A stretch of DNA of 48,618 bases from Bacteroidales bacterium (GTDB lineage: Bacteria > Bacteroidota > Bacteroidia > Bacteroidales > Muribaculaceae). The notes beneath the pieces are model-generated. The model had not been told where the DNA came from, ran no database searches, and saw only the letters and a list, made by a program, of their open reading frames with translations. Made by a program: the position numbers and the translations under genes. The stretch spans positions 1 through 48,618 of the forward strand of contig CAJTEX010000022.1 of the NCBI GenBank assembly GCA_910575615.1, read 5' to 3'. Of the stretch, positions 6,372 to 9,410 are shown one piece after another (positions within the stretch are counted from its first letter, which is position 1; every line of letters starts with the position of its first letter).

Positions 6372-7127
6372 ATGAAAACGACAGACGATTTCTTCATACT
6401 TGATAATGAGGTCAAGCTCCCTGAAGAACTTGATTACAGCCGGGTGGATGAATATATCCGCTCGGCAGAGGCGTTTTCTCGCTCCACATATCAGAGCGTC
6501 TATATCATTGACTATTTCAAGCAGAATTTCCTGTATGTGTCGCCCAATCCCATGTTCCTGTGCGGATTGACACCTGAGCAGGTGATGAAACGAGGCTATC
6601 GTTTCTATTTGGAATATGTGCCTGAGGATGAGCAGCAGTGTTTGATTGATCTGAACGAAGCAGGATTTTCATTTTATCAAACGATTCCGGTTAATGAGCG
6701 TAAGGACTGGTACATCTCTTACGATTTTCATATCCTAAATGACGGGCGAAGGCTACTTGTCAACCACAAGCTGACTCCGCTTACCCTCACATCCGACGGG
6801 CGAATATGGCTCGCCCTCTGCGTGGTGTCAGCATCTACCCGCAACGACGCCGGACATATAGAAATGCACCGCGTCGGCTCGTCCGGTTTCTTTGAGTATA
6901 ATCTGACTACTCACCGCTGGGACAAACGGCAGATGCCGACTCTTACAGACGGTGAGAAATCTGTGCTGACACTCTCTATTCAAGGTCTTACAATGAGTGA
7001 GATTGCTGATAAAATCTGTCTGTCGCCCGATACTATCAAGAAATACCGTCAGCGCATATTCGAGAAACTTGATGTGCGCAATATATCCGAAGCCATAATT
7101 GCCGCTACAAACAACAAGCTACTCTAA
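6372..7127 (+). CDS. PAS-LuxR type transcriptional regulator
   Basis: The 251-residue protein has an N-terminal PAS-like sensor fold, about residues 35-150. It includes VYIIDYFKQNFLYVSPNP, a segment typical of PAS proteins, and FYLEYVPEDEQQ. The C-terminal LuxR-type helix-turn-helix, about residues 190-250, carries LTDGEKSVLTLSIQGLTMSE and a LSPDTIKKYRQRIFEKL recognition segment. There is no receiver domain or kinase. The effector is unknown. It is separated only by a small convergent gene from a divergent promoter pair with a strong inverted repeat, so it is a candidate regulator of that site, but this is inference. The stop overlaps the convergent gene by 9 bases. Confidence 0.85.
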   Translation: MKTTDDFFILDNEVKLPEELDYSRVDEYIRSAEAFSRSTYQSVYIIDYFKQNFLYVSPNPMFLCGLTPEQVMKRGYRFYLEYVPEDEQQCLIDLNEAGFSFYQTIPVNERKDWYISYDFHILNDGRRLLVNHKLTPLTLTSDGRIWLALCVVSASTRNDAGHIEMHRVGSSGFFEYNLTTHRWDKRQMPTLTDGEKSVLTLSIQGLTMSEIADKICLSPDTIKKYRQRIFEKLDVRNISEAIIAATNNKLL

Positions 7128-7655
7128 ATTCTTGCACAAATAAAATCGTGGAAAATGTTTTACTTCACGCTCTACGGCGATGTTGGCTGCTATCCGTGCG
7201 CATATATGCGCTGCTGTGTCCAGTGCCGTACTGTTCGTTACGCCGTTCTTGATGTCGGATAATGAATAGCGCAACCACTCGTACCCATCTATATTCCAGA
7301 AAGCACAATAACCTGCCATATATGTTGCCGCCCATTGCCGGAGATTAGGCTTGCGTAACATATCCCTTTCGTCCTCAGGCATAACAACGATAGCACCGGC
7401 TCCATTTACAAAATCAAATGGCAATATTAAAGGAATAGTCGCATCCTTTGATAAGCAAGAACTGCCATCATTGACATTCTCGGCAATAACATCTGTATTT
7501 ATAATAGGTTCTTCATCAGACGGGGATATTATTTGAATCGCCTCAAAGCCCAACTGTTGAAGTTCGGTTCTGACGCTGCCGATAAACTCAGTAGCTCCTG
7601 CAACTGCGATTCGGCAGTCTGCAATCTGGCGTTTTTCTTCGGTTGTCATATTCAT
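7119..7655 (-). CDS. Unknown protein with Rossmann-like N-terminus
   Basis: The 178-residue protein has no signal peptide. Near residues 14-25 it reads CRIAVAGATEFIGSV, a beta strand and glycine-rich turn like a nucleotide-binding fold. Residues about 75-92 (IPLILPFDFVNGAGAIVV) recall the second half of ThiF/E1-like folds, but the ATP-binding and Cys residues of those enzymes are not evident, so I do not assign it. A C-terminal helix and strand (ARIAANIAVEREVKHFPRFY) close the domain. It is transcribed divergently from the secreted esterase, sharing a symmetric operator, and convergently with the LuxR-type gene. Length and codon use support a real gene. Confidence 0.65.
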   Translation of the reverse strand: MNMTTEEKRQIADCRIAVAGATEFIGSVRTELQQLGFEAIQIISPSDEEPIINTDVIAENVNDGSSCLSKDATIPLILPFDFVNGAGAIVVMPEDERDMLRKPNLRQWAATYMAGYCAFWNIDGYEWLRYSLSDIKNGVTNSTALDTAAHICARIAANIAVEREVKHFPRFYLCKNLE

Positions 7656-7697: not shown

Positions 7698-7759
7698 TGC
7701 CATACCCAAAAGTGTATGTTTTCATCTCCAAACTCATTTGTACACTTTTGGGTATGGCA
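7698..7759. promoter_or_regulatory. Perfect 19-bp inverted repeat, divergent operator
   Basis: TGCCATACCCAAAAGTGTA at 7698-7716 is repeated exactly as its reverse complement at 7741-7759, with a 24-base spacer. Arm centres (7707 and 7750) are 43 bp apart, about four helical turns. Each arm centre lies exactly 28 bp from the upstream edge of the -7 box it faces (7679 and 7778), about -42 from each predicted transcription start. This is the usual place for an activator. Each arm also holds a partial dyad, ATACnC...GnGTAT. The likely ligand is a dimeric regulator such as the nearby LuxR-type protein. Confidence 0.8.
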
Positions 7760-7777: not shown

Positions 7778-7785
7778 TAATTTTG
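7778..7785 (+). promoter_or_regulatory. -7 box of the esterase gene
   Basis: TAATTTTG followed by C lies 25 bases before the start codon at 7810. There is no TTTG at the correct -33 spacing, which fits a promoter that depends on an activator bound at the adjacent operator arm. Confidence 0.65.
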
Positions 7786-8970: not shown

Positions 8971-9300
8971 TCTTATGAGGACTCTGATGACTATATTCTT
9001 TCTGGCTATCATGGCTCTGGCGACTAATGCCAAATCATACCAGCCAAAGTCAGCAATTACGATGACAAGGTAACTATCCTCTTTACAGACTACAATGCCG
9101 GATAGCAATATACGGTTTCCGATGTAAAACTCATTCCAACATGGAAAGGACAAGAGTGTCAGGCGACCTCGGTTAAGGCCACCGAAAAGAATGGTGTTGC
9201 CATTGTGACAATCGTCTTTCCCCACATCACCCAATTCTCTAATCTGATAGTCTCACTTCGGATTAACCGAAAGAATGTCAAATTTAAGGTGTGCCAGTAG
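8957..9300 (+). pseudogene. Decayed small secreted-protein gene
   Basis: The frame starting at 8957 (or 8975) encodes an intact signal peptide (MRTLMTIFFLAIMALATNA) but stops at 9071-9073. A second frame picks up at about 9058 and reads YDDKVTILFTDYNAG, a TAG at 9103-9105, then about 64 further sensible codons (QYTVSDVKLIPTWKGQE and on) to a TAG at 9298-9300. One frameshift near 9050-9060 plus one nonsense codon therefore break an ORF of about 113 residues. The start overlaps the esterase stop, so it was the second gene of that operon. A terminator follows at 9356. I do not recognise the family. Confidence 0.65.
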
Positions 9301-9355
9301 CATATCCATATTCAATAAAACAATTATTAGAAAACAACTTAATCATACGAATAAA

Positions 9356-9394
9356 GACAGGCAACCTCGGCAGTGATTGCCGGGGTTGCCTGTC
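9356..9394. terminator. Strong intrinsic terminator, probably bidirectional
   Basis: A 17-bp stem (GACAGGCAACCTCGGCA at 9356-9372 with 9378-9394, one T-G pair) and a 5-base loop are followed by TTTGTG on the plus strand and preceded by A-rich sequence. It sits between the decayed gene on the plus strand and the decayed 3' part of the minus-strand 9753-10124 gene. Confidence 0.85.
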
Positions 9395-9410
9395 TTTGTG
9401 TTATCGCGAG

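Follow-up and report, generated by a model that had tools for sequence, protein, structure and literature searches.

Two divergent promoters in a Muribaculaceae genome (Bacteroidales) are separated by a perfect inverted repeat, which raises the question of which protein binds the repeat and what it does to the genes on either side. The stretch of DNA analysed here, 48,618 nucleotides long, is referred to below as the window. The left promoter serves a gene for a 178-aa E1-like protein (7119..7655, minus strand), whose stop overlaps the 3′ end of a gene for a 251-aa regulator (6372..7127, plus strand). The regulator combines a PAS-like N-terminal domain with a GerE/LuxR helix-turn-helix (HTH) and is the proposed binder of the repeat arms. 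The right promoter serves a gene for a putative esterase (PF00756; 7810..8970, plus strand) that also has a CBM20-like domain.

The inverted repeat and its two-fold cores

Arm 1 of the repeat (7698-7716, minus strand) reads TGCCATACCCAAAAGTGTA, and arm 2 (7741-7759, plus strand) is its exact reverse complement; the 24 bases between them (7717-7740) are a spacer to which no strand is assigned. A perfect 19-bp inverted repeat with a 24-base spacer had been noticed from the letters alone, and the sequence confirms it. The claim that it is unlikely to have arisen by chance also held, as 1.9e-5 perfect 19-bp repeats are expected. At spacers of up to 100 bases, it is the longest perfect inverted repeat of the window, the runners-up being 14 and 13 bp long, and the longest inverted repeat in 40 dinucleotide shuffles of the window was 14 bp. 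A separate perfect 14-bp inverted repeat with a 17-base spacer is located at 9353-9397. When the own genome (3.13 Mb in 89 contigs) was searched for the arm with up to three mismatches, two exact copies, which are the two arms, and two copies with three mismatches were retrieved.

Each arm is made up of a 14-bp palindrome-like core, TACCCAAAAGTGTA, flanked towards the promoter by a further 5 bp, TGCCA. The cores occupy positions 7703-7716 (dyad centre at 7709.5) and 7741-7754 (dyad centre at 7747.5), and the own genome contains one such inverted pair of cores only. The partial dyad that had been noticed in each arm is real: TACCC faces TACAC, with four of the five letters matching. The core of relatives is TACCCAAAWGKGTA, versus TACCCAAAAGTGTA in the window; their half-sites are often fully matched, as in TACCCAAATGGGTA, where symmetry is broken by the two central letters only, and the core of one locus (L199) is a perfect palindrome, TACCCAATTGGGTA. 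Thus, each arm looks two-fold, as a site for a dimer. The arm centres are 43 bp apart, as had been stated, but the four helical turns deduced from this distance did not stand: because each arm is lengthened by TGCCA at its promoter end, the distance between the dyad centres is 38 bp, or ~3.6 turns.

Sites in relatives, their distance to the -7 box and their spacing

The original prediction was staked on conservation of the motif near homologous gene pairs. The motif proved to be conserved: inverted pairs turned up in 16 of the 397 family genomes searched, while a control search with the reversed pattern retrieved none. Homologs of the PAS-LuxR gene are present on 14 of the 18 stretches that hold those pairs. 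Searching of named species genomes yielded 424 relatives, of which the best 80 were taken; these are titled Muribaculaceae, Porphyromonadaceae, Prevotella and others, some of the bin titles being doubtful. Some loci are one genome present in both collections (e.g., L037/L114), so that numbers of stretches do not equal numbers of species. In a sample of the order (393 genomes, six of them the own genome or genomes of the same genus or same family), the pair was found in the own genome only; outside the family, a narrow pattern matched none of 387 sampled genomes. Since Prevotella-titled loci among the best 80 of the 424 match that same pattern, the pair also occurs beyond the family, and the absence of matches reflects sampling and the narrow pattern.

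The regulator was followed in the same way. At E 0.001, PAS-LuxR matches were obtained in 119 of 149 family genomes, most of them weak and at the HTH end, and the family search retrieved a nearly full-length homolog with at least 62% identity in 18 genomes. With a profile of the regulator at E 1e-50, seven of 295 genomes of the order were hit, the own genome among them. Of 117 homologs, 101 have a qualifying site no more than 4 kb away, as do 62 of the 72 with at least 60% identity; some genomes are counted twice. The other 16 of the 117, some of them close (L036, 88%; L116, 83%; L119, 81%), have no qualifying site within 4 kb. At L037/L114, one locus from two collections, the contig ends where the site would be. 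There are also single sites with a good -7 box (e.g., in L044, L047 and L051), and, taken together with the 16 homologs without a nearby site, they indicate that the pair is the common form, not the sole form.

The own genome, when searched with the core at up to one mismatch, contains three more sites, two on contig C2 and one on contig C26, with no TAnnTTTG in the scanned flanks. The regulon may therefore be limited here to just two genes. Two core-like sites at G000:C2:20756-20849 (L106) are arranged in direct order, 80 bp apart, without a -7 box, and adjoin an open reading frame that, by eye, resembles a tyrosine recombinase; a similar sequence is found at L038:5204.

TAnnTTTG is given as the -7 consensus of the main σ factor of Bacteroides (excerpt of PMC7366714). 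The boxes of the left promoter (TACTTTTG; 7679-7672, minus strand) and of the right promoter (TAATTTTG; 7778-7785, plus strand) are both exactly 23 bases from the 14-bp cores that they face, core 1 and core 2, respectively, and both positions are conserved. The symmetric placing of the repeat between divergent promoters, which had been claimed, is thereby borne out. A scan of the two flanks of each of 191 distinct sites (131 stretches) counted 114 exact TAnnTTTG boxes that start at offset 23, against 22 at all other offsets between 0 and 37; in a 78-site set, the counts were 57 at offset 23 and two elsewhere. A control of the 191-site scan with half-sites reversed returned 21 sites, with a box at offset 23 in six and at offset 31 in one, and two pairs; we take these hits to come from real CACAC..GTGTG sites, which the control pattern also fits. 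The other control returned 12 sites without any box and without any pair. Nine sites have an offset of 31 instead of 23, five of them in L055-L059 and four in L168, L171, L175 and L176. They span two separate regulator clades, with the box mostly on the regulator-gene side; in the last four stretches, the site is upstream of the regulator gene. With the -7 box centred at -7.5, an offset of 23 puts the dyad centre at about -41.5, which is the class II position. Judged by box distance and with transcription starts that are predicted, the site near -41.5 overlaps the -35/-33 element, the core and its TGGCA flank reaching into the -33 region.

Paired sites were retrieved with a generic core, YACMCN4GKGTR, at distances of 15-120 bp. 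The centre spacings of the 59 distinct pairs are 28 (one pair), 37 (five), 38 (27), 39 (eight), 49 (six), 50 (two), 55 (one), 59 (six), 60 (one), 61 (one) and 69 bp (one); that is, 58 of the 59 fall on the helical steps 28, 37-39, 49-50, 59-61 or 69 bp. Three base shuffles of all stretches produced no core pairs. The pair with the 55-bp spacing, in GC-rich sequence of L052, is probably a chance occurrence and was retained in the statistics; the GC-rich L052 site was excluded from the labels and spacings prepared for the residue-224 comparison described below and retained for the 59-pair, phasing, 191-site and 117-homolog counts. The best period of the pair spacings is 10.6 bp (R 0.91). Randomisation of the eleven distinct spacings, the 55-bp outlier included, gave a p of 0.0013, which is a guide only, kinship being ignored. 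Judged from the sequences, the spacing appears to change in steps of a helical turn. Eight stretches with PAS-LuxR homologs were later fetched from other families of the order; two of them contain pairs, with spacings of 38 bp (L199) and 49 bp (L201), both directly upstream of the regulator gene, and the other six contain no pair.

A -7 box (up to one mismatch) at 22-24 bases is present at both ends of 32 of the 61 pairs, at one end of 26 and at neither end of three. The 39-bp pairs, which are mostly of the Prevotella type, have the box on the target side only in 12 of 15 stretches, so that a pair seems to be relevant to a single promoter too. The phase of about 0.6 turn beyond whole turns would put the two dimers on different faces of straight DNA. 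All 16 distinct spacers of 38-bp pairs that could be oriented by the E1-like gene carry TTTT at positions 3-6, next to the arm on the E1-like side, and a weaker GCA is seen at positions 18-20 (G in 12, C in 14 and A in 15 of the 16), where the window reads TCA. The T-tract may bend the DNA. The same phasing would be expected from looping, from direct dimer-dimer contact or from shared contact with RNA polymerase. In L099 (7310-7786), two nearly identical operator pairs are located 425 bp apart, which suggests a local duplication.

The PAS-LuxR protein as the candidate regulator

The HTH of the regulator matches the GerE family (PF00196, E 7e-13, 48.4 bits versus a cut-off of 23.5) as well as the HTH structures of VraR, NarL (1je8) and GerE. 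The predicted model of the protein has a mean pLDDT of 90, and its best fold matches are 3clo (Bacteroides protein NP_811094.1) and VqmA, with which it shares the two-domain plan; 3clo is also the best match by profile over residues 93-251. The PAS fold before the HTH was recognised by fold match alone (3clo, VqmA and isolated PAS domains), there being no PAS family among the Pfam matches of the regulator. The window protein has 14-22% identity to them, with whole-chain TM-scores of 0.27-0.47 and an rmsd of 14.6-18.0, so that the domains match and their arrangement does not. Nor was a counterpart of the VqmA ligand or target seen in the window.

The NarL heptamer is TACYYMT (excerpt of PMC4886647), and inverted heptamers are bound by a dimer (excerpt of PMC4549865). 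The half-sites of the window, TACCC and TACAC, resemble this heptamer, as the HTH resembles that of NarL. In contrast to the 7-2-7 operators of NarL/FixJ regulators, where heptamers are 2 bp apart, the heptamers of the window abut (7-0-7, 14 bp), and the window regulator carries a PAS-like domain without matching a receiver domain.

One can ask whether the arms are bound by some other regulator, PAS-LuxR being merely a neighbour in the cluster. This would fit the four pair stretches out of 18 that have no PAS-LuxR gene, of which L097 and L098 carry the E1-like gene only, L096 the esterase only and L104 none of the three, and also the 16 of 117 homologs with no site nearby. However, L096 and L097 are contigs of one genome, G115, which carries the PAS-LuxR gene on another contig; the absence of the gene for L098 (genome G293) and L104 (genome G371) was judged on the stretch alone. 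Also against another regulator is the likeness of the half-sites to the heptamer of NarL, a protein of the same HTH family, and the type of site follows an HTH residue of the PAS-LuxR homologs. In 95 of 96 loci (rows L065 and L068 having been removed beforehand), the outermost core base is C when residue 224 is Ser or Thr, and T when it is Lys, Phe, Val or Ala; L184 is an exception. Residue 224 would correspond to Val189 of NarL, a base-contacting residue. The rule involves two to three changes on the tree, with a p of 0.5 in a paired test, and the covariation is suggestive only, i.e., supportive of the identity of the regulator and not proof of it.

Two paralogs of a single genome, RIAY01, likewise speak against another regulator, as they adjoin different types of sites: a TACCC-type site for L111, and CACAC- and TACAC-type sites for L171. 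So do sites located upstream of the homologs' own genes, which were seen in L055, L064, L065, L199 and L201. Upstream of the PAS-LuxR gene of the window, there is a -7 box and no site-like sequence at up to four mismatches on either strand. Elsewhere in the same genome (G000:C26:4286-4417, L069), a 44-residue N-terminal fragment is 86% identical to PAS-LuxR. On balance, binding of the arms by a protein other than PAS-LuxR appears very unlikely.

Target genes and proposed activation from a shared operator pair

The left target had been labelled "Rossmann-like"; this label should be replaced, as the protein is a degenerate relative of E1/ThiF-type adenylyltransferases. It has no convincing family match of its own and falls into one BLAST cluster together with full-length, ThiF-matching proteins. 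The nearest solved fold to its predicted model (mean pLDDT 86) is AclA of Tenacibaculum discolor (9egb, E 1.2e-8; also 9egc), which has the ThiF fold and is a close relative of the full-length L171 homolog (307.7 bits). Unlike AclA, the window protein lacks both the nucleotide-binding loop GxGxxG and the conserved block DGDxVELSNLNRQ (DxDxVxxxNLxRQ), which are present in the L168 and L171 homologs, and it is therefore probably not an adenylating enzyme.

Of 81 stretches (the window and the best 80 of 424 named loci), 44 carry the E1-like gene, which is usually convergent with the regulator gene and divergent from the second target. In many relatives, outer-membrane receptor-like genes take the place of the esterase: among the same 81 stretches, the families encountered, often as the second target, are outer-membrane β-barrel/TonB-receptor-like proteins (27), an unassigned ~690-aa family (24), a DUF6624 protein (nine) and the esterase (seven, the window counted). 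3′ of the window esterase, at 8977-9200, there is, by eye, an apparent degraded and interrupted relative of a small exported protein (cluster c8), which follows the homologous target in L111, L127, L128 and L129.

We propose, from comparison of sequences, that the repeat is very probably an operator pair for the adjacent PAS-LuxR protein, two dimers of which, cooperating in helical phase, would activate the promoters on both sides. The earlier claims of a single regulator, with a dimer on each arm and serving both divergent promoters, for which PAS-LuxR was a candidate, are supported by this comparison. In the manner of class II activators, one PAS-LuxR dimer would occupy each core, overlapping the -33 region and touching the RNA polymerase of the promoter that it faces. 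The upstream partner dimer, at about -80 here, would assist via dimer-dimer contact or via the alpha C-terminal domain of the polymerase, either of which would fix the helical phase of the two. The same pair would thus drive the E1-like gene leftward and the esterase rightward. The PAS domain probably ties DNA binding or activation to a signal.

At tandem CRP sites, a further upstream dimer acts in synergy with the first, dependent on helical phase. CRP-dependent promoters are divided into classes, of which class II includes those with a dimer near -41.5 (excerpt of PMC10127613). The arrangement predicted here is similar in having a dimer near -41.5 and a phased upstream dimer; it differs in the protein family, in the Bacteroidales -7 box and in that one pair is common to two divergent promoters.

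The overlap of the core and TGGCA flank with the -33 region would also suit repression, in which case the dimers would cover the -33 regions and keep both promoters shut, for instance until a ligand binds. Repressor sites are usually scattered over the promoter. A distance to the box of exactly 23 bp, and one that varies so little, fits class II activators instead, and helically phased upstream partner sites fit synergy better than occlusion, so that we regard repression as very unlikely, much like binding by another regulator. Invertible promoters are common in Bacteroidales, and the repeat, being perfect and preceding genes for exported proteins in a genome of this order, could be thought to flank an invertible promoter switch. 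We consider this highly improbable and rejected it: the 24-bp spacer is too short for a promoter, the -7 boxes are outside the repeat, several relatives (e.g., L045 and L103) have left and right arms that are not identical, and each of the 16 orientable distinct spacers of 38-bp pairs has its T-tract on the E1-like side. Chance, or the ends of a small transposable element, for which there is nothing beyond the repeat itself and the double pair of L099, was dismissed as next to impossible given the 1.9e-5 repeats expected, the one pair in the own genome and the fixed box geometry in relatives. Activation of both promoters by paired PAS-LuxR dimers thus remains our preferred explanation.

A paralogous branch of the regulator is located in radical-SAM peptide clusters. 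In both L053 and L171, the homologous regulator is found alongside a radical-SAM enzyme, a peptide-exporting ABC transporter (by family match in L053 and, in L171, by nothing more than its start sequence), a receptor (PF14905 in L171; by BLAST cluster only in L053), an acyltransferase-like gene with sub-threshold matches and a short peptide without a family match, which we read as a GG-leader precursor. The candidate peptide-modifying cluster at L171:1-7508 comprises the exporter start, the receptor, the radical-SAM enzyme, the Cys-rich short peptide, the acyltransferase-like gene by a phased pair, PAS-LuxR and an AclA-like E1 protein. Candidate LuxI/FeeM-like acyltransferase genes are present in L053, L168, L171, L175 and L181, and in the last four of these the acyltransferase-like protein is beside a LuxR-type gene. 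The FeeM and autoinducer-synthase matches were tested on L181 (5184-5810), where they have E 0.0014 and 0.006, respectively, both below their cut-offs; the FeeM match of the L053 protein (E 0.0044) is likewise sub-threshold.

A joint reading of these clusters and the window is a previously undescribed signalling system of gut Bacteroidales, in which PAS-LuxR responds to a small molecule or modified peptide that the bacteria make themselves and the window holds a listener copy; the sub-threshold acyltransferase matches support it indirectly, and we put it forward as unlikely on present evidence, if less so than repression or another regulator. If it is true, phased operator pairs switch on an AclA-like E1 enzyme and an outer-membrane receptor, to which some branches add a radical-SAM peptide cluster (L053 and L171) and a LuxI/FeeM-like acyltransferase, while the window copy is reduced, with the enzyme activity lost and reception kept.

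Taken by its kind, the system described here is already known, combining LuxR/NarL-type activators, the class II position and phased operators; the regulator family is new, of a known kind. Among the matches listed from open-licence literature, there was no paper on the regulator family, on its 7-0-7 operator or on its link to E1-like and receptor genes, and the common operator TACCCAAATGGGTA was not found in the open-licence literature searched. Muribaculaceae are a dominant family of the mouse gut, and, to our knowledge, regulator-operator pairs have hardly been mapped in them. At this locus, the regulator, the operator, the promoter position and the spacing rule can all be read from the sequence, and the assignment can be transferred to about 100 stretches (101 of 117, with some genomes present twice), peptide-modifying gene clusters among them.
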